Positions 2,202 to 15,949 are shown, counted from the first letter of the stretch. The stretch: DNA of 31,326 nt from Candidatus Termititenax sp. (GCA_020719045.1 DYQY01000016.1:1-31326), one strand, 5' to 3'. The notes: generated from the letters alone by a model not told the origin. Numbers and translations are program-made.

Positions 2202-3173
2202 GTGAACGAGATTGAACTTATTGATTATTTAACAGAAGGATTTCCAATAAGACATAACAATGTTATTAAAGGTATTGGTGATGATTGTTCTGTATGGAAA
2301 GAAGACGATGAATATCGTGTTTTTACAACTGATTCTATGGTTGAAGGTGATCATTTCCTTAAGGATTGGTTTACAGCAGAAGAGATTGGTATGCGAGCTG
2401 TTGAGACAAATTTAAGTGATATCGCTTCTATGGGAGCCATTCCTACGTTTTTGTATGTTTCATTAATAATAGATGATAGAACTTCGCCAGAGTGGCTAGG
2501 TGATTTATATAAAGGGATTAGATCAAAATGTGATGAACATAAATTAACACTAATGGGTGGCAATGTAACACACGGAAAGACCTTATCAATAACTATTGGT
2601 GTACAAGGTGACAGTAAAAGTATGCCTGTCTATAGAAATGGTGCTAGAGAGGGTGATTTAGTTGTTGTTACGGGTACTATAGGTGATGCTTGTGTTGCCA
2701 GAATGGTGCTGAATAAAAAGAAACAAATACCTGATGCATTAAAGGATAGATTAGCTCATCCAAGAGCAAGGATTCGTGAAGCTTCTGTAATAGCTAAGTT
2801 TGCTTCCGCTATGATAGACATAAGTGATGGTATTGCATCTGAGGCAAGACATATAGCTTCGCAAAGTAATTTAGGAGTTGTGATAGATGCCGATAGTATC
2901 CCAACAAGAATGCAAGTAAAAGAGCTTGCATTAATAGCTGGTATAGATGTTTTGGAAGCACAGATGCGTGGTGGTGAAGACTATGAGCTTATGTTTACTA
3001 TATCACCTGATAAATTCGAAGAACTAAAAAATGAATATCATTTGCATTCGCAGATAGGGATTACACCTATTGGTAAAATGATTGCAGAAAAGAAATACGT
3101 ATATTTAAAAAATAGTGTAGAAGCCACTCTACCAAAAGGTTTTGACCATTTCTCAAGTAATATTAATCTTTAA
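2202..3173 (+). CDS. thiL: Thiamine-monophosphate kinase ThiL
   Basis: ThiL phosphorylates thiamine monophosphate with ATP to give thiamine pyrophosphate, the active cofactor. The 323-residue length is normal for the family, which shares the AIRS/PurM fold. Visible motifs: GIGDD (24-28), TTDSMVEGDHF (42-52), NLSDIASMGA, LMGGNVTHG, VVTGTIGDA, MIDISDGIASEA and GGEDYELMF; the acidic clusters bind magnesium and phosphate. The start is GTG with GGGAGAGG 5 nt upstream, supplied by repeat R2. It lies downstream of thiC in the same direction, so cotranscription is likely. Its stop overlaps the argJ stop on the other strand by 4 nt. No other thiamine genes are present. Confidence 0.95.
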   Translation: MNEIELIDYLTEGFPIRHNNVIKGIGDDCSVWKEDDEYRVFTTDSMVEGDHFLKDWFTAEEIGMRAVETNLSDIASMGAIPTFLYVSLIIDDRTSPEWLGDLYKGIRSKCDEHKLTLMGGNVTHGKTLSITIGVQGDSKSMPVYRNGAREGDLVVVTGTIGDACVARMVLNKKKQIPDALKDRLAHPRARIREASVIAKFASAMIDISDGIASEARHIASQSNLGVVIDADSIPTRMQVKELALIAGIDVLEAQMRGGEDYELMFTISPDKFEELKNEYHLHSQIGITPIGKMIAEKKYVYLKNSVEATLPKGFDHFSSNINL

Positions 3174-4336
3174 TTGTAGTCTGCGTTTATTTGCACATAA
3201 TCATGTGATAAATCTGAAGTCCAACCAGTTACACATGCGTCACCTAAGTGAAGGTCTAAGGTTATGTTTATTTCCTTATTTTTCATGTACTGATCTAGCA
3301 CCGGTTTATCTTGATTTGTGATAGAGCCATTCTCGTATAGCAGGTATTCACCTAACCATAAAGTAGTTTTATCTGGATCAATGTTTGACTGTATTTTCCC
3401 AGCAGAGCTTAGGATTCTTCCAAAGTTTGGGTTCTCGCCAAAGATTGCAGTTTTAACTAAAGGAGAGTTCGCAATAGAGTAGAAGATGTTTTTTGCTTCT
3501 ATTTCACTTGATGCGTTGTTAATATTAATAGTAATAAACTTAGTTGCACCTTCTCCGTCTCTAATAATTAGTTTAGCAAGCTCAACAGAAACTTCTTTTA
3601 CAGCTGCTTTGAAAGCTTTCACGTTATTATTGTTTATTTTTACACCTGTATTACTTGAAAGCAGTAAACAAGTATCATTAGTTGAAGAGTCACTATCAAC
3701 AGTAATAGCATTAAAAGAAGAATCAACAGAGTAATTAAGGGTTTCTTGTAGAGTTTTCGCATCTACGTTTGCATCAGTCATGATAAAAGCAAGCATTGTC
3801 GCCATATTAGGTTGAATCATTCCGCTGCCCTTGGTGACACCAAGGATGTTTACTGCCTGACCATCAATAGTAATAGTTTTATAAGCAACTTTTTCGAAAG
3901 TATCAGTTGTCATAATTGCTTTTACAAAGTCATCAACATTTTCTGTAAGGCTTAAAACAAGTTTGTTTATGCCTTTTTTTATTGTATCTACTTGGAGTGG
4001 TTTTCCGATAATGCCAGTAGAAAGTGTTAGTGATGAATTTTCCTTTAGATTTAGTTCAGCATTAAGAGATGCAAGAACGCTATTAATGTTTTTCATGCCT
4101 TCTGCACCAGTTAAGCAGTTTGCGTTGCCACTATTAACAATTACGCAGTTAAGGACGTTATTGTTTTGTGACAGTATCTGTTTTGATGAAGGGATAGTTG
4201 GTGATGCAAACTTGTTTTTGGTAAAAACACCAACACATGTTGCACCAGTTTCACAATAAATAAGTCCAAGGTCTTTTTTTTCTTTTTTGATACCACAATG
4301 AATTCCTGCAAATTTGAATCCTTTAATTTCTTTCAT
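3170..4336 (-). CDS. argJ: Arginine biosynthesis bifunctional protein ArgJ
   Basis: ArgJ transfers the acetyl group of N-acetylornithine to glutamate; many versions also make N-acetylglutamate from acetyl-CoA. The 388-residue precursor cuts itself at the A-T bond of KGSGMIQPNMATML, here Ala179-Thr180, and Thr180 becomes the nucleophile. NSGNANCLTG, GEGATKF, NFGRI and the C-terminal WTSDLSHDYV are also typical. The ATG overlaps the stop of the LeuD-like gene as ATGA, with AAAGGA 8 nt upstream, so translation is probably coupled to the aconitase-like pair. No other arginine gene is in the window. Whether this ArgJ is mono- or bifunctional cannot be read from the sequence. Confidence 0.95.
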   Translation of the reverse strand: MKEIKGFKFAGIHCGIKKEKKDLGLIYCETGATCVGVFTKNKFASPTIPSSKQILSQNNNVLNCVIVNSGNANCLTGAEGMKNINSVLASLNAELNLKENSSLTLSTGIIGKPLQVDTIKKGINKLVLSLTENVDDFVKAIMTTDTFEKVAYKTITIDGQAVNILGVTKGSGMIQPNMATMLAFIMTDANVDAKTLQETLNYSVDSSFNAITVDSDSSTNDTCLLLSSNTGVKINNNNVKAFKAAVKEVSVELAKLIIRDGEGATKFITININNASSEIEAKNIFYSIANSPLVKTAIFGENPNFGRILSSAGKIQSNIDPDKTTLWLGEYLLYENGSITNQDKPVLDQYMKNKEINITLDLHLGDACVTGWTSDLSHDYVQINADYN

Positions 4337-4827
4337 TTTTTTAATCCTTTTCTAAGTTGATTTAATATTCCACCATCCAAGTATAATTGATAGAAATATT
4401 TTTTAATAGGCTTGAATTTTATGCCTACTTTTTTGGTTTTATTCCTAATATATGATTGATTAATGTCTATAATTAGTTCGTCATGGCTATCAATATAGTC
4501 AGTATTGGCTTCAATGCAAATAAGTCCAACATTAAAAGCATTTTTATAGAATGGAAAGAAAAATGATTTTGCTAATATTATTTTTATTCCACAGTGCTTG
4601 AGTATACTTGCAGCTAATTCCTTAGAAGAACCATATCCAAAGTTTTCTGTTCCAACTAATATTTTTTGGTTAAATGTTTCTTCCATGAAATCAGGAATGA
4701 TAGAACTAAAAGGTTGGACTGATGTTGGGTCATGATATGACGAGGTAATTGTATTTGCTACAATATCTCTAGCTGAAATAACCTTATTTAGTTTATAAGC
4801 AAAGCCTTCAATATTTTCTACGCTCAC
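4333..4827 (-). CDS. LeuD-like aconitase-family small (swivel) subunit, divergent
   Basis: The 164 residues fit the swivel domain of isopropylmalate or homoaconitate dehydratase small subunits. GTENFGYGSSKELA (59-72) replaces the usual G-NFGCGSSREHA, and AKSFFFPFYKNAFNVGLICIE follows the family pattern of AKSFARIFYRNAINNGLP. The N-terminal DNVDTD-IIP signature is largely lost (NKVISARDIVANTI), and the substrate-loop Arg of SSRE is Lys. The start is GTG, overlapping the stop of the LeuC-like gene as GTGA, with a full AAGGAG 5-6 nt upstream. ArgJ overlaps its end in the same way. The partner is far more degenerate, so an isopropylmalate or homoaconitate function should not be assumed. Confidence 0.75.
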   Translation of the reverse strand: MSVENIEGFAYKLNKVISARDIVANTITSSYHDPTSVQPFSSIIPDFMEETFNQKILVGTENFGYGSSKELAASILKHCGIKIILAKSFFFPFYKNAFNVGLICIEANTDYIDSHDELIIDINQSYIRNKTKKVGIKFKPIKKYFYQLYLDGGILNQLRKGLKK

Positions 4828-6035
4828 TCGAACTCCTTTAAGGATGTAAGTTTTCCAGCAATAGCAGTTGCAATAGCTGTTTTAACAGAACCTGTATAAA
4901 CGCTTGCTTTGCTCTTACCAGCTGACATGGATAAACTAGCAATTCCGCTTGATAGTACGTTTTCATTTTTAAGAACAACCACTCCATTCGTACTTTGGCA
5001 TATACCTGTTGATGGTGTCAGTAGTGTGCATCCAGCATTAAGAATTGCGCTTAGATATCCTTTATTGGTTGCTTCTCTTAGAATGTCTGAGCAAGCAGGA
5101 GTAATAAAACAGGGGATTGATACTTTCTTATTATTTAGTACTTTAGCTAAGAACGCTAAGTCATCTATCGTACCACCAATAGTATTACCTATAAAAACCT
5201 TGTGTATATTGAGGTTCTCTAATTCAGAAACATGAAACACGTTATGTTTAAGTTTAACCATTGGTTCAAGCTTTGAGACATCAAATCTAAGTTCTTTGTA
5301 GTATTTAGTATCCTCGTCACGCTCTACTGCAGATTGGTTGTTTTTCCTGTAAATAATTGGTGGAAATAAAAAGTTTTCAGCATTAAGCGTATAGTGGTGG
5401 AAGGCTAGGGTGTGAAGTTCATTTTGAGATACATTTTGTAGAAATTCACCAGAGAATTCAATAGCATAGTTCTTAAGATTAAGTTGATCCATTTCTTGTT
5501 TTAAAAACAATGCTACATCTTTTGCATTAGTTTGTGGAAGTAATTTACCGATTAGATTAATGTTTACAAGCTGAGGTACCAAATAATCCATTTTGCCGGT
5601 AATCAGTGTTTTAATAATATCGCTATTTCCACAGCTGATACTTAAGGTGTTAAGTGGTGAAAAGAAGTTAATGGTTGAATCGCTACCAATCAAAACTTCT
5701 CCAGGTTTAATTTTGTTTTGGTTTAAAAGGTTATGATGCCAATGTCCTTGCAGCTCGCCCATAATATTAATTTTATACTTTTTAGCATCTTCAATAATTT
5801 TTGCCTGTATTTCAGGGTAATGTTTTTGTTGTTGATAATGAAAGTAGGTAAGTCCAAGAAAGACAGGGCATTTAGGTTTATATATACTAAATTCTTCCAT
5901 TGCTTTAAGGATAGGAACAGCACTGTTGTCAGATATGAAGATATGATCAACTTCAATTGGAATAACGTCTCCAGTCTGAAAATCTTTCTTTTCAGTATGA
6001 GCTAGTAGAATTTTTTCAAGGATAGACCCTTTCAT
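4824..6035 (-). CDS. LeuC-like aconitase-family large subunit lacking cluster and catalytic residues
   Basis: The 403 residues align end to end with archaeal-type LeuC/homoaconitase large subunits (about 420). Preserved landmarks: SILEKIL, TGDVIPIEVD, KPGEVLIGSDS, SCGNSDIIKTLITGKMDYLVP, AKDV, VFIG and ITPAC. The chemistry is not preserved. FIGSCTNGR is FIGNTIGGT, so the first cluster cysteine is Thr285. NPSCSAC is TPSTGIC, so the second is Thr343 and only Cys346 remains. The DHQVP, GADSHT and SNRNF-GR motifs are also gone. The frame is intact and coupled to LeuD-like and argJ genes, so it looks selected rather than decayed. It may be a cluster-free dehydratase, a binding protein or a structural partner. 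No Shine-Dalgarno is present; a TATAAT ends 7 nt before the ATG. Confidence 0.7.
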   Translation of the reverse strand: MKGSILEKILLAHTEKKDFQTGDVIPIEVDHIFISDNSAVPILKAMEEFSIYKPKCPVFLGLTYFHYQQQKHYPEIQAKIIEDAKKYKINIMGELQGHWHHNLLNQNKIKPGEVLIGSDSTINFFSPLNTLSISCGNSDIIKTLITGKMDYLVPQLVNINLIGKLLPQTNAKDVALFLKQEMDQLNLKNYAIEFSGEFLQNVSQNELHTLAFHHYTLNAENFLFPPIIYRKNNQSAVERDEDTKYYKELRFDVSKLEPMVKLKHNVFHVSELENLNIHKVFIGNTIGGTIDDLAFLAKVLNNKKVSIPCFITPACSDILREATNKGYLSAILNAGCTLLTPSTGICQSTNGVVVLKNENVLSSGIASLSMSAGKSKASVYTGSVKTAIATAIAGKLTSLKEFE

Positions 6036-6042
6036 GGGACTA

Positions 6043-6048
6043 ATTATA
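6043..6048 (-). promoter_or_regulatory. -10 box of the LeuC-like/LeuD-like/argJ operon
   Basis: A perfect TATAAT on the minus strand, ending 7 nt before the ATG at 6035. No clear -35 is seen. It faces a second TATAAT on the plus strand at 6069-6074, so the divergent genes have mirror-image spacing. Confidence 0.45.
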
Positions 6049-6068
6049 TCACGGCTTAAGAATAGTGG

Positions 6069-6074
6069 TATAAT
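6069..6074 (+). promoter_or_regulatory. -10 box of the patatin-like gene
   Basis: A perfect TATAAT ending 7 nt before the ATG at 6082. It supports that ATG over the in-frame ATG at 6034, which would overlap the divergent gene. The -35 region is weak. Confidence 0.45.
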
Positions 6075-6081
6075 AGGACTT

Positions 6082-6867
6082 ATGTTCTTTTTCTTTAAAA
6101 AATCAAAAAAAATTGGATTAGCTTTAGGTGGTGGGGGTGCAAGAGGGATTGCTCATTTAGGTATACTTCAGGTATTAAATGAAGAGAATATTCCTATTTC
6201 TTGTATTTCTGGGACAAGCGTTGGTGCTTTTATTGGTGCTTTTGTTGCAGAAGGCAGACCAATAGAAGAGATGATAGAAATGGTAAATTCACTTAAGTTA
6301 AAGGATTTTATGGTTCTTGATTTTAAGTTCCAAGGAATTTCAAGTAGTGAAAAAACTATTGGTAAAATTGTAAAAAAGCATATAAAACATGACTCCTTTA
6401 GTGGATTAAAGATTCCATTTTCAGTTGTTACTAGCGATATTGATAGAGGTGTGCCAGTTGTTCTAAAAAAAGGCTCTCTTTCGAAAGCAGTTTCCATGAG
6501 TGCTAATTTCCCTGGTCTTTTTTCTCCAATAGAACATGAAGGAAGTCATTATGTTGATGGTGGTGTGTTTGTAAATGTTCCTACAAGGCAAGTTAGACAC
6601 TTAGGTGCTGATATTGTTATCGGGATAGATTTAAATCCAGAGAAAAACTTTTCTTGTGCGAGAAAAAGTGTTCTTGATGTAGCTAATAGATCGATAGATT
6701 TATTGATTGATAATCAACAGATTAGGCGTGCGGATCTAATAGTTAATCCAGTTAAAGAGTTTTACTCGTTGTTTGAAACAAAGAATAATAAACTGATGTT
6801 AGAAATGGGTAGAAAATGTGCAGAAAACGAGATAATACCTTTCCTAATAAAGAAGAAAGTTATTTAG
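6082..6867 (+). CDS. Patatin-like phospholipase (RssA/YchK type)
   Basis: A bacterial patatin-like acyl hydrolase of 261 residues. The oxyanion motif GGGGARG is at 16-22, the nucleophile Ser46 sits in GTSVG, and Asp159 of the DGG motif completes the Ser-Asp dyad. The N-terminus is short and basic with no signal peptide, so a cytoplasmic lipid esterase is likely; the substrate is unknown. An upstream in-frame ATG at 6034 would add 16 residues but overlaps the divergent LeuC-like start codon and precedes the likely -10 box, so I chose 6082. The 3' end overlaps the tail of the AlbA_2 gene on the other strand by 8 nt. Confidence 0.9.
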   Translation: MFFFFKKSKKIGLALGGGGARGIAHLGILQVLNEENIPISCISGTSVGAFIGAFVAEGRPIEEMIEMVNSLKLKDFMVLDFKFQGISSSEKTIGKIVKKHIKHDSFSGLKIPFSVVTSDIDRGVPVVLKKGSLSKAVSMSANFPGLFSPIEHEGSHYVDGGVFVNVPTRQVRHLGADIVIGIDLNPEKNFSCARKSVLDVANRSIDLLIDNQQIRRADLIVNPVKEFYSLFETKNNKLMLEMGRKCAENEIIPFLIKKKVI

Positions 6868-7833: not shown

Positions 7834-10293
7834 TTAGCTAAATAAGCCTAACTGTTCAATGATTTTTTTCTTAGATTTACTAAGTGAAAGCTCTTCTTCT
7901 TCTAAATGATTAAGGATATTATTGGCATCTTCAATAACTTTAGCTGGTAGGCCTGCAAGTTGCGCAACGTGTATACCATAGCTTTTTTCAGCGTGACCAG
8001 CTACAACTTTATAGCTAAATCTAATAGTTCCATTTTCTTCTAGTACAGCTACATTCATATTTTTGATTTCTTTATATTTTTCTGAAAGTGAGGTCATTTC
8101 ATGGTAATGGGTAGCAAATACTGTTTTAGCCTTTGTTTCTAGGATAAGGAACTTGGCAATTGAGGCAGCAATACTAAGTCCATCATAGGTAGATGTTCCT
8201 CTGCCAATTTCATCTAGGATAATAAATGAGTTGGCTGTTGCACTGTTTAGGATATTTGCAGTCTCAAGCATTTCAACCATAAAGGTACTTTTACCTTCAA
8301 ACAGGTTGTCGCTTGCACCAATTCTTGCAAATATTTTGTCAGTTAAGCAAATATTGGCTTTTTTAGCTGGAATATATGAGCCTACTTGTGCCATTATTAA
8401 ATTAAGTGCTATTTGTCTCATGTAAGTTGATTTCCCAGCCATATTTGGCCCAGTAAGAAGTATGAACGGTTTTTTGTCTTGCTCAATTAGCACATCATTT
8501 GGCGTAAAGCTAAAAGATGATGAGCTTCTTTCTATTACAGGATGCCTTGATTCAGTTATGGATATTTTCCCTTCGTCGTTAAAGGTCGGGTTACAATAGT
8601 TGTTTTCTTTAGCATTTACTGCAAAACAAGACAAACAATCAATTTTTGCAAGTTTCTCAGCAATGATTATTAGCATGTTTTGATATTTTTCTATGAAGGA
8701 AATAACCTCATCAAATATCTCAGTTTCTTTTCTAAGCATCATCTCATCAGCATGTAAGATAAAGTCTTCTTTTTCCTTAAGCTCCTGAGTATAGTATCTT
8801 TCGGAGTTAACTAATGTTTGTTTTCTTATAAAGTTTTCTGGTATTAAGTGAATGTTAGATTTAGTAACATCAAGATAATATCCAAAGGCTCTTGTGTATT
8901 TAATTTTGAGAGTTCTGATTCCAGTTTCTTCTTTAAGCTTATTTTCGTAATTCAAAAACCAAGTCTTGTTGTTCTTTACTTCTTCACGAATAGAGTCTAG
9001 TTCTTCAGAGTATCCAGTTTTAATAAATCCACCATTTAGCATCACGGCAGGAGGTTCTTCAACAATCGTCTTTTCTATAAGTTCAGCTATTGTGTTCGTG
9101 TCATTAGTCCAATCTTTAGGAAATAGGATATATTCTGCTAGTTCTTCTTTAATGCTTTCTAAGTTCTCAACAATTTTTGGTAGGATATTTAAGGAATTTT
9201 TAAAGGATATTAGATCTTTTGGATTGGATTTATGGTTAGAAATCTTGGTAGTAAGTCTTTCGATATCATAAACTGAGTCCAGATTGCTACGAATTTCATT
9301 TAGAGATTTAAAGTTATTATAAAAGTATTCTGTAATATCTAATCTTTTTTTAATCTCATCTAAATCCGATAAAGGTCTTATGAGCCATTTTTTTAAACAC
9401 CTGGAGCCCATAGCTGTTTTTGTGTTATCCATCACCCAATAAAGCGAGCCTTTTTTGTCCTTGTTTTGGATAGACTGAACTATTTCTAAATTATTTAATG
9501 TAATGCTATTAAGAAATAGGGTGTTTTTCAAAGAGTACATTTTAGGTTTTTGAATGCTAGCGGCGTTTTTTTTGCTTCTTATAAGATAGTTTATGATTGT
9601 TGCTACAGCATGCGTTGCTGATGCGTGTTCAGTTAGTCCAAGAGATTCGAGTGAAAAGATATTAAACGTTTCCTTACAGATTTCTATTGATCTATCTAGA
9701 GAAAATGACTCAGCAGTGGTTACATAATTCTTGTCTTTATATTTTAAAGGGTCAATAGTTGTAGGTACGAGTAGTTCTCTAGGTGAAATTCTTTCTATTT
9801 CGTTTAAAAAAAGCTCTTCTGATGAGGTCTCTGTATAGTTGAACTCACCAGTGGAAACATCGCAGTAGGCTAAGCTATATATCCCTTTTAGGCTGTTAAC
9901 ATCAATAGCTGCTAAATAGTTATTATCCGTTCCGCTAAGTAAGTGTTCCTCAATAATAGTTCCAGGGCTTATTACATCAACAACTTCTCTTTTAGTTATT
10001 CCTTTGCTTTGAGAAGCATCTTCTGTTTGTTCGCAGATAGCTACTTTTATGTTGTTTTTCAGAAGCTTTGGGAGGTAGTTATTAAGAGCATGGTAGGGTA
10101 TTCCACACATTGGGATTTTGTTGTCATATTCGTCCTTACCTCTGGCGGTAAGTGTTAATCCAAGCACTCTAGAAGCTTTATAGGAATCTTCAAAAAACAT
10201 CTCATAGAAGTCGCCTAATCTAAACAATAGGAGACAGTCGTCGTATTTCGACTTGATCTCTTGATATTGTTGCATCATTGGGGTTAATGCCAT
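7834..10293 (-). CDS. mutS: DNA mismatch repair protein MutS
   Basis: MutS recognises mismatches and small loops and, with ATP, becomes a sliding clamp that recruits MutL. The 819 residues span all MutS domains. The mismatch-reading motif GDFYEMF has Phe29 and Glu31. The connector, lever and clamp regions follow. The C-terminal ATPase has the Walker A GPNMAGKST (615-623), DEIGRGTSTYDG and ATHYHE. The ATG lies 1 nt after the pheT stop, so mutS is the third gene of a pheS-pheT-mutS operon. This is an uncommon partnership that would tie mismatch repair to synthetase expression. mutL is not in the window. Confidence 0.97.
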   Translation of the reverse strand: MALTPMMQQYQEIKSKYDDCLLLFRLGDFYEMFFEDSYKASRVLGLTLTARGKDEYDNKIPMCGIPYHALNNYLPKLLKNNIKVAICEQTEDASQSKGITKREVVDVISPGTIIEEHLLSGTDNNYLAAIDVNSLKGIYSLAYCDVSTGEFNYTETSSEELFLNEIERISPRELLVPTTIDPLKYKDKNYVTTAESFSLDRSIEICKETFNIFSLESLGLTEHASATHAVATIINYLIRSKKNAASIQKPKMYSLKNTLFLNSITLNNLEIVQSIQNKDKKGSLYWVMDNTKTAMGSRCLKKWLIRPLSDLDEIKKRLDITEYFYNNFKSLNEIRSNLDSVYDIERLTTKISNHKSNPKDLISFKNSLNILPKIVENLESIKEELAEYILFPKDWTNDTNTIAELIEKTIVEEPPAVMLNGGFIKTGYSEELDSIREEVKNNKTWFLNYENKLKEETGIRTLKIKYTRAFGYYLDVTKSNIHLIPENFIRKQTLVNSERYYTQELKEKEDFILHADEMMLRKETEIFDEVISFIEKYQNMLIIIAEKLAKIDCLSCFAVNAKENNYCNPTFNDEGKISITESRHPVIERSSSSFSFTPNDVLIEQDKKPFILLTGPNMAGKSTYMRQIALNLIMAQVGSYIPAKKANICLTDKIFARIGASDNLFEGKSTFMVEMLETANILNSATANSFIILDEIGRGTSTYDGLSIAASIAKFLILETKAKTVFATHYHEMTSLSEKYKEIKNMNVAVLEENGTIRFSYKVVAGHAEKSYGIHVAQLAGLPAKVIEDANNILNHLEEEELSLSKSKKKIIEQLGLFS

Positions 10294-13879: not shown

Positions 13880-14914
13880 TTGAATAATAACATTTGTTTA
13901 GATACAAAAAAACAAGAAAAACAAATTATTCTTAATCGTCCGAGGCTATTGGTTAAGAGTCAATTATCATTTACAAGAATAAGAAAAGAAAAAAAAGCTT
14001 ATGACTTTAAGTTTATTGATTTATTTGCAGGAATAGGTGGAATAAGGATAGGATTTGAATCAATTAACGGGGAGTGTGTGTTTTCTTCAGAGTGGGATAA
14101 ACATGCACAAAAAACATACGAGGCTAATTTTGGAGAAATACCTTACGGAGATATTACTAAAATAGATGAAGCTCAAATTCCTGATTTTGATATTTTGGTG
14201 GCTGGTTTTCCTTGTCAGCCTTTTTCTCATGCTGGTCTTAAAATGGGATTTGAAGATTCAAGAGGAACCTTGTTTTTTGATATAGCTAGAATAGTGAAGT
14301 TCCATAAACCGAAGGTTGTTTTTTTAGAGAATGTTAAAGGCTTTAAAAATCATGACAAAGGAAATACGTTTAAGGTTGTATGTAATACATTAGAAGAAAC
14401 GGGATATACTGTATATTCTAAGGTTTTAAATGCTCGAGACTTTGGTGTTCCTCAAAATAGGGAAAGAATTTATATAATTGCTTTTTTAGAAAAGGTTTCT
14501 TTTTGTTTTCCAGAGCCACTCAAAAAAGTAGTGAGGTTAGGAGATATTCTGGAAAGAGAAGTTGATGTTAAATATACAATTTCAGATAGGTTATGGGCAG
14601 GACACCAAAGAAGAAAAAGAGAATATATAAATAAAGGTAACGGATTTGGCTATTCGTTGTTTAATGAAAATTCAGAATATACAAGTACTATTTCTGCCAG
14701 ATATTATAAGGATGGATCCGAAATATTAATTGAACAAAGCAAAAAAAACCCACGTAAGCTTACACCTAAAGAAGCATCTAGATTACAGGGTTTTCCAGAA
14801 CATTATGAAATTCCATGTAGTGATTTGCAAGCATACAAACAATTTGGGAACAGTGTTGCTGTTCCTGTAATAAAAGCTTTGGCTGAATCAATTAAAGAGG
14901 CACTTAAAAAGTAA
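13880..14914 (+). CDS. DNA (cytosine-5) methyltransferase of a type II R-M system
   Basis: A C5 cytosine methyltransferase of 344 residues, using SAM to methylate cytosine in a short DNA site. Motif I FIDLFAGIGG (45-54), motif IV GFPCQPFS with catalytic Cys112, motif VI ENVKG with Glu150, motif VIII QNRERIYI (192-199), motif IX LTPKEASRLQGFP and motif X QFGNSVAVPV are complete and in normal order. The target-recognition region is about 225-290; site specificity cannot be read off. The start is TTG with AGGAG 6 nt upstream; no other start lies before motif I, and about 40 residues precede it. The nuclease follows after 9 nt. The base composition is more AT-rich than the flanks, suggesting acquisition by transfer. 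Confidence 0.95.
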   Translation: MNNNICLDTKKQEKQIILNRPRLLVKSQLSFTRIRKEKKAYDFKFIDLFAGIGGIRIGFESINGECVFSSEWDKHAQKTYEANFGEIPYGDITKIDEAQIPDFDILVAGFPCQPFSHAGLKMGFEDSRGTLFFDIARIVKFHKPKVVFLENVKGFKNHDKGNTFKVVCNTLEETGYTVYSKVLNARDFGVPQNRERIYIIAFLEKVSFCFPEPLKKVVRLGDILEREVDVKYTISDRLWAGHQRRKREYINKGNGFGYSLFNENSEYTSTISARYYKDGSEILIEQSKKNPRKLTPKEASRLQGFPEHYEIPCSDLQAYKQFGNSVAVPVIKALAESIKEALKK

Positions 14915-14923
14915 AAGTATTGA

Positions 14924-15949
14924 ATGAAAATTAATAAACTACAAATAGAAAAGCAAAAATTTGATATTAATCTAAAATTTTATTTTTTATTAAAGCAGTT
15001 GGTTAAATCCAAATTATCAGAAAATCAATCATTATTAATTTTAGAGATATTGAATTTATTTAATAGCTCAATTAAAACATGTATTGAAAAGCTTACAGGC
15101 TTTGCTTCTTGCATTAAAGGTGAAGAAAAAAAAGAAATAGTTTTTTTAATTATTGATACAATCGAAAATGAGACAGACATAGAGTTATTAATTTTTAGTT
15201 TGAATTTGTATCTTATAAAGGATTTACTATTAGAGGAGGCAAAGTTAAACGAAGTTATAGGGCTTTCTGAGTTGCAAGAATTAGATCCATTGTCGTTATC
15301 ATATGATAAAAAATCTGTGTACCGTCCTTATTCTACAAGGGTAAGTGGTGCTTTGTTAGCGTTGCTTTTCTTTTCACATTTAGAAGAAGGGAAAACTAAC
15401 TTTATGTCTATAGATTCCTATGATTTTGTGAAAAATTTATCAAAATATTCAAATAAACTTAAAATTAAAGGCGTGGAGCCAAATCAAATTTTTATGCTTA
15501 TGTTTTCAGAAAGTGTTAATCAATCAATTATTTCAGATTCAGGAACTGACTATGAGGATAGAATTTTGTCTGTACTTACTAAAATTGGTATACCAGAAAA
15601 AGATATTTTAAAAACACACTATAAGGATGATGCAAGTACAGAATTTGATTTCTTTTTTGAGTTAAATAATAAAACATATGGAATTGGAGCTAAAAGGACA
15701 TTACGAGAAAGATATAAGCAATTTATAAAGACAGCACATATGAGCAGAATTGATATTATGATAGAAATAACATTAGGCTTAGATTTAAATGAAGATAAGG
15801 CAAAAAATATATTAAGTCATGGTGTTTATATTTTTGTGTCAGATGAGGTATATAACGCTAGGGATTTTTTACGGAAACTTGATGGCATTTATTCTGTAAA
15901 AGAGTTAACTGTTGAGAAATTGAGTTCATTGAAAGTTATTCAAGACTAA
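14924..15949 (+). CDS. Putative type II restriction endonuclease (PD-(D/E)XK type)
   Basis: A 341-residue protein placed 9 nt after the methyltransferase, the usual position of the cognate nuclease. The N-terminal half is helical and unrecognised. The C-terminal half has a plausible PD-(D/E)XK core: Glu211 in DYEDRILSVL, then EFDFFFEL with Asp242, then GIGAKRTLRERYKQF with Lys257. The KRTLRERYKQ stretch recalls the KRT-RWRQ pattern of the EcoRII/Ecl18kI-like group, from memory. The usual E/D of ExK is Gly here, so the acidic role may be taken by Glu262, as in migrated active sites. No Shine-Dalgarno is seen, so translation may depend on the methyltransferase. The recognition site is unknown. 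The gene is strongly AT-rich. Confidence 0.75.
   Translation: MKINKLQIEKQKFDINLKFYFLLKQLVKSKLSENQSLLILEILNLFNSSIKTCIEKLTGFASCIKGEEKKEIVFLIIDTIENETDIELLIFSLNLYLIKDLLLEEAKLNEVIGLSELQELDPLSLSYDKKSVYRPYSTRVSGALLALLFFSHLEEGKTNFMSIDSYDFVKNLSKYSNKLKIKGVEPNQIFMLMFSESVNQSIISDSGTDYEDRILSVLTKIGIPEKDILKTHYKDDASTEFDFFFELNNKTYGIGAKRTLRERYKQFIKTAHMSRIDIMIEITLGLDLNEDKAKNILSHGVYIFVSDEVYNARDFLRKLDGIYSVKELTVEKLSSLKVIQD

Follow-up and report, generated by a model that had tools for sequence, protein, structure and literature searches.

A degenerate LeuC–LeuD pair is encoded in one operon with argJ

The 31,326-base contig analysed here in its entirety (G000:C2, hereafter the window), from a 1.75-Mb Margulisbacteria genome (G000, Candidatus Termititenax sp.), encodes together with argJ a large and a small subunit of LeuC and LeuD type, here named BIG and SMALL, which have lost the cluster ligands and catalytic motifs of their family and are under strong purifying selection. 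We tentatively read BIG–SMALL as an order-specific, cluster-free LeuCD pseudo-isomerase with a new, non-catalytic role as a partner or regulator, for which ArgJ is the most likely target. That the pair has been repurposed is well supported, and the interaction with ArgJ is the part that we infer.

BIG (403 amino acids, aa; 4824–6035), SMALL (164 aa, GTG start; 4333–4827) and argJ (388 aa, ATG start; 3170–4336), the only argJ of the genome, follow one another on the minus strand, each recognised by its open reading frame, profile match and alignment, and BIG also by a fold model. Direct reading of the sequence confirmed the coordinates, open frames and four-base overlaps reported by an initial annotation of the same DNA: at GTGA (4824–4827) the GTG start of SMALL lies on the BIG stop codon, and at ATGA (4333–4336) the ATG of argJ lies on that of SMALL, an arrangement that predicts translational coupling from BIG through SMALL to argJ. 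Good Shine-Dalgarno sites had also been noted and are present, on the minus strand, for SMALL (AAAGGAG, 4833–4839, spacer 5 nucleotides, nt) and argJ (AAAGGA, 4345–4350, spacer 8 nt). The −10 box attributed to the operon proved to be an extended −10 element, TGnTATAAT, which lies 7–10 nt 5′ of the BIG start codon in each of the six genomes that cover the region (in the window TGATATAAT, 6043–6051, minus strand, 7 nt from the ATG). Because this element lies so close to the start codon, the BIG transcript is probably leaderless, or nearly so, rather than led by a Shine-Dalgarno site. A scan for consensus two-hexamer promoters did not single out the site upstream of BIG, an outcome compatible with an extended −10 promoter without a good −35. 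The divergent patatin gene likewise has a TATAAT seven bases 5′ of its ATG (6069–6082; GGTATAATAGGACTTATG), and leaderless transcripts are possibly common in this organism; among 13 genes of the window that were briefly inspected, the pattern is clear for BIG and patatin only.

The end-to-end alignment of BIG with archaeal-type LeuC described earlier was borne out by the archaeal isopropylmalate isomerase (IPMI)/homoaconitase large-subunit model NF001614, in which residues 5–398 matched positions 3–413 of 415 (E 1.7e-60). The scores fell below the curated cut-offs, at 205 versus 385 bits for NF001614 and 194 versus 410 bits for TIGR02086, and SMALL scored 96.8 bits against LEUD_arch TIGR02087, below the cut-off of 109. 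The AlphaFold model of BIG (mean predicted local distance difference test, pLDDT, 75; predicted template modelling score 0.72) found its best structural match in Methanocaldococcus jannaschii LeuC MJ0499 (Z 30.8, 377 residues, 4.4 Å), followed by homoaconitase and aconitases. Segments with pLDDT below 50 were 122–127, 220–223, 343–352 and 365–379, three of which coincide with loops that once held DSHT, the cluster CxxC and NRNFxGR. The LeuCD fold and full-length two-subunit architecture are thus represented in BIG by the fold model and in SMALL by sequence, and BIG, as judged from its sequence and model, would be a cluster-free aconitase fold of the IRP kind.

Cluster ligands and catalytic motifs are lost throughout the clade

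Alignment verified that two of the three 4Fe-4S cysteines of the window's BIG are threonines (Thr285 and Thr343, ligands 1 and 2), the third ligand being Cys346. Across the six BIG sequences of the order, ligand 1 is Thr in two, Ser in two and His in two, thus Cys in none, ligand 2 is Thr in all six, and at ligand 3 five have Cys whereas G004 has Ser. Besides C346, the only conserved cysteines are C336 of BIG (6/6) and C104 of SMALL (7/7); an alternative set of three conserved cysteines was sought across the clade in both subunits and none was found, which answers the earlier concern that relatives might carry cluster cysteines at shifted positions.

The DHxVP, DSHT and SNRNF-GR blocks said to be missing from BIG are gone not only in the window, where DHxxP and NRNFxGR are absent and DSHT reads DSTI, but in the whole clade: the Asp of DH and the His of DSHT are Thr in all members, and the NM..E block has lost its N and E, and NRNFxGR its two Arg, which have been replaced by varying residues. 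SMALL has, as reported, lost its DNxDTD signature (DNVDTD in the initial annotation). Its GSSKE motif, which it was thought to keep, is intact in the window and reads GSFKE in G001, ASTRE in G006 and GSSNE in G004; this variation across the clade shows that it has not been kept as a catalytic motif. Among DH, DSHT, N..E, NRNFxGR and GSSRE, only three residues are invariant: Ser in DSHT, and the first Ser and Glu in GSSRE.

For a wider comparison, 99 LeuC columns with a conservation of at least 92% among 26 relatives, near-invariant in functional LeuCs, were taken as reference. The BIG clade retains 25 of them invariantly, while 47 are variable and 15 are fixed to another residue; SMALL retains 14 of 34 conserved reference columns. 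The fraction of columns not strictly retained that became fixed otherwise (15/74) compares with 24% of all BIG columns being invariant in the clade, and within the clade the former active-site columns show no more conservation than the average column. This ordinary variability is mild evidence against a new lyase in the old site, and fits a loss of catalysis better than a re-specialisation of catalysis at that position.

Within the phylum genomes searched, the pair occurs in one order and is under strong purifying selection

Seven genomes of one order of marine Margulisbacteria (G000–G006) and one of a sister order in the same class (G007) were central to the comparison. BIG, SMALL and argJ are complete and in the same order in six of the seven genomes, with the genes overlapping or at most about 14 bases apart, and G006 carries SMALL–argJ on a contig that ends within the start of SMALL. 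Orthologues of BIG share 78% (G001), 46% (G004), 41% (G003), 39% (G002) and 38% (G005) identity with the window's copy and contain no stop codons. The same losses and the same gene order in relatives down to 38% identity are a pattern beyond chance. In a SMALL profile search of 74 genomes of the phylum, E values below 1e-75 were obtained in the seven genomes of the order only, the next best match being 2.9e-34 in G007, and the trio was not found in the other 67. A short-peptide-pattern scan of genome contigs returned three loci, all of Candidatus Marinamargulisbacteria, and the trio may also be present elsewhere. Searching plasmids with SMALL gave distant matches only; the five matches listed were at 29–36%, and three of these five carried the annotation 3-isopropylmalate dehydratase.

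Between G002 and G005, the nonsynonymous (dN) and synonymous (dS) divergences of BIG were 0.047 and 1.61, giving a ratio (omega) of ~0.03. Omega was 0.02–0.06 for SMALL and 0.035–0.042 for argJ; with dS near saturation these values are approximate, yet far below 1. Between G002 and G005, conservation was 92% for BIG, 95% for SMALL and 89% for ArgJ. BIG and SMALL are therefore under strong purifying selection, that on BIG being comparable to that on argJ. As to the selection for a new role suggested at the outset, the selection is strong and the repurposing well supported, and the roles considered below are proposals.

The pair appears to derive from an archaeal-type LeuCD

The phylogeny recovered BIG–SMALL as a separate, fully supported clade (100/100) sharing the same missing residues, as had been anticipated. 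In the concatenated tree the pair grouped with G007_C61, a LeuCD of G007, and with the phylum's archaeal-type second LeuCD (99/98), and descent from the host's own leuCD was rejected (approximately unbiased test, p 0.008). By sequence, then, the pair appears to derive from the archaeal-type LeuCD of the phylum and not from the host leuCD. The host indeed encodes a second, normal leuC–leuD elsewhere in its genome (L026), the presence of which had been put forward as a check, together with an aconitase (L027).

Support for G007_C61 as sister was moderate (89/83 in the concatenated tree, 94/93 in that of the small subunit), and this position carries a long-branch warning. The stem branch of the BIG–SMALL clade is very long (2.96 changes per site). 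This half-degenerate LeuCD (L034:7264–8631 and 8634–9143), encoded beside pabB and not near argJ, keeps the three cluster cysteines and 78 of the 99 reference columns, with ESHS for DSHT and GIMG for GRMG, and looks like an intermediate form. The neighbourhoods of the parental LeuCDs (miaA, pyrC and pabB) are uninformative for function. In another genome (G040), the leuC-like and leuD-like genes are separated by a gene (L040:10476–11570) for a 364-aa protein that has helix-turn-helix repeats and weakly matches LAGLIDADG, possibly a homing-endonuclease insertion.

ArgJ lies in an inherited gene block

ArgJ of the window scored 460 bits against NF003802 (cut-off 351), and its catalytic nucleophile region, KGSGM...NMATM, is intact. 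The seven linked ArgJs share D302N, within GxDPNWGR, and G373T, at two sites invariant in 21 unlinked ArgJs; the ArgJs of the order have GENPNFGR for GxDPNWGR, and TSD, TTD or TCD for GCD near the C-terminus, both of them motifs that ArgJ otherwise keeps invariant. Changes affected 6 of 73 conserved columns in linked ArgJs versus 1–4 in control groups, and a co-change of D302N/G373T with the linkage is suggestive at most.

The trio belongs to a block, thiC–thiL–argJ–SMALL–BIG–patatin–AlbA2, that is conserved in the order's genomes to the extent that their contigs cover it. The neighbours thiL (2202–3173), convergent, and the patatin-like phospholipase gene (6082–6867), divergent, are both on the plus strand and outside the operon, and the flanks are partly rearranged, thiC being inverted relative to thiL in G003. 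A gene of ~300 aa stands between BIG and patatin in G002–G005 (L022:7634–8539, L023:1636–2547, L024:3514–4407 and L025:3017–4012) and is absent from G000 and G001; no Pfam match was obtained for the three copies scanned (L022, L023 and L024). Outside the order, no LeuC-family gene adjoins argJ in any genome where both were located, and in G007 argJ sits in a normal arg operon beside argB, argG and argH, away from any LeuC. The recurring argJ linkage that had been proposed as a check was found in all genomes of the order, as an inherited block; independent recurrence was not found. Of the refuting conditions named with the initial annotation, none was borne out.

The arginine genes of G000 comprise argB, argC, argH and the single argJ, with argD matches below the cut-off. 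A short GNAT gene with partial ArgA similarity occurs in nine of the ten genomes searched (G000:C22:84242–84622 and equivalents in relatives) and shares a contig with argH in several; by sequence it is a candidate stand-alone N-acetylglutamate synthase, and ArgJ may accordingly not be the sole source of N-acetylglutamate. Elsewhere in the window, a C5-cytosine DNA methylase gene followed by one for a 341-aa protein without Pfam match (13880–15949) is possibly a restriction-modification pair.

Possible function of BIG–SMALL

In the proposed mechanism, BIG and SMALL would still pair as LeuC does with LeuD, would no longer be able to perform aconitase-type dehydration and hydration, and would be made in a fixed ratio with ArgJ through the shared operon; the pair would then bind ArgJ and alter how active or how stable that enzyme is, perhaps when a small ligand occupies the old cleft. 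A more specific version, in which the cluster-free pair is a dedicated non-catalytic regulator of ArgJ and a metabolite in that cleft sets the rate of acetyl recycling, is plausible though doubtful; it places such a regulatory complex in a lineage where the ArgR repressor was not detected in the ten genomes searched (the control was detected in 9 of 14). Several observations weigh against a partnership with ArgJ. The linkage belongs to a single inherited synteny block in which unrelated genes also lie, so gene order is no proof of a function with ArgJ and the inference of an interaction is weakened by the conservation of all seven genes; elsewhere in the phylum ArgJ functions with no such partner; the structure model of SMALL is of low confidence (pLDDT 34); and the polar residues newly fixed at former active-site positions of BIG (T63, S120, T121, N123, H213, H214 and T343) would also fit new chemistry or ligand binding.

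Newly fixed polar residues of the old cleft would form the catalytic set if the pair were a new cluster-independent enzyme, be it a lyase, an isomerase or a hydrolase, whose substrate is an amino acid or acyl-amino acid at or close to the step of ArgJ. Among columns formerly of the active site or conserved in the family, T63 stands where Asp was, T121 for His, N123 for Cys, H213/H214 for Met/Ala, N218 for Gly and T343 for a cluster Cys; the strong purifying selection fits an enzyme too, and Aconitase X (AcnX) is a precedent for the exchange of substrate and cluster sites within the superfamily (PMC8184944). We nevertheless regard this as somewhat unlikely, because those aconitase-fold enzymes that have been characterised, AcnX among them, work with an Fe-S cluster (PMC8184944), both substrate-binding Arg of NRNFxGR have given way to variable residues, the modelled active-site loops (122–127, 343–352 and 365–379) are of low confidence, and no arginine step is missing among argB, argC, argH and argJ, with argD represented by the below-cut-off matches. 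Also somewhat unlikely is a conserved job unrelated to ArgJ, such as ligand sensing or RNA binding in the manner of apo-aconitase (IRP1/IRP2), in which case the operon with argJ would be a historical accident in a slowly rearranging block. The synteny of the entire thiC–AlbA2 block speaks for it, as does IRP2, a cluster-free aconitase fold that is an RNA-binding regulator without aconitase activity (PMC4056636); however, the trio stays intact while its neighbours are partly rearranged and G002–G005 have the extra ~300-aa gene, and a probably leaderless BIG mRNA would offer no 5′ untranslated region for self-regulation.

It is very improbable that BIG–SMALL still works as an isopropylmalate or homoaconitate isomerase whose cluster cysteines have moved and whose active site is unusual: the fold match to MJ0499 and the persistence of C336 and mostly C346 would suit it, but neither subunit has three conserved cysteines, G004 has Ser at 346, nothing is left of the two Arg, the Asp-His, the DSHT His or the N/E pair, and a normal leuCD is encoded elsewhere. 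A LeuCD in decay or an assembly artefact is barely conceivable. The disappearance of all catalytic motifs and the long stem branch are what decay would leave, whereas the promoter element and the coupling are conserved and conservation equals or exceeds that of argJ in the G002/G005 pair; this explanation was rejected on the open frames in six independent genomes and the low omega of BIG, and the selection analysis proposed with the initial annotation likewise speaks against a decaying pseudogene.

Comparison with known systems

Within limited open-access coverage of the literature, no argJ-linked aconitase-like genes, LeuC pseudoenzymes or bacterial LeuCD-derived cluster-free pair were found described. 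The joint loss of machinery from both LeuC–LeuD subunits, with a surviving half-way form in a sister order, would make the conversion of a two-chain Fe-S enzyme traceable, and if BIG–SMALL does bind ArgJ, it would represent a new way to control arginine synthesis.

BIG–SMALL resembles the archaeal IPMI/homoaconitase LeuC–LeuD (MJ0499, 4kp1/4nqy; TIGR02087) in its separate subunits, end-to-end alignment, fold and gene order, and differs from it in lacking ligands 1 and 2, DH, the DSHT His, the N/E pair and NRNFxGR, and in being linked to argJ. AcnX, a cis-3-hydroxy-L-proline or mevalonate-5-phosphate dehydratase, is also a branch of the superfamily with a non-canonical active site, heterodimeric in its type II; apart from AcnX, the enzymes of the superfamily share nearly all of ~20 active-site residues, and AcnX binds its Fe-S cluster through three Cys at positions of its own (PMC8184944). 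Unlike AcnX, BIG–SMALL has no set of three Cys and nests with IPMI-type sequences, the structural match to AcnX reaches only Z ~11–12, and BIG scored 13 versus 700 bits against the NCBIfam cis-3-hydroxyproline dehydratase model (E 0.02). IRP2 and apo-IRP1 offer a parallel in which an aconitase fold, having lost its cluster and its enzymatic function, turned into a regulator, IRP2 being the cluster-free, enzymatically silent form in eukaryotes (PMC4056636); IRP2 is a eukaryotic single-chain RNA binder, whereas BIG–SMALL is bacterial, two-chain, LeuCD-derived and coupled to a metabolic gene. The nearest relative by the tree is the half-degenerate LeuCD of G007, from the same class, which differs from BIG–SMALL in keeping its three Cys and in having no linkage to argJ.

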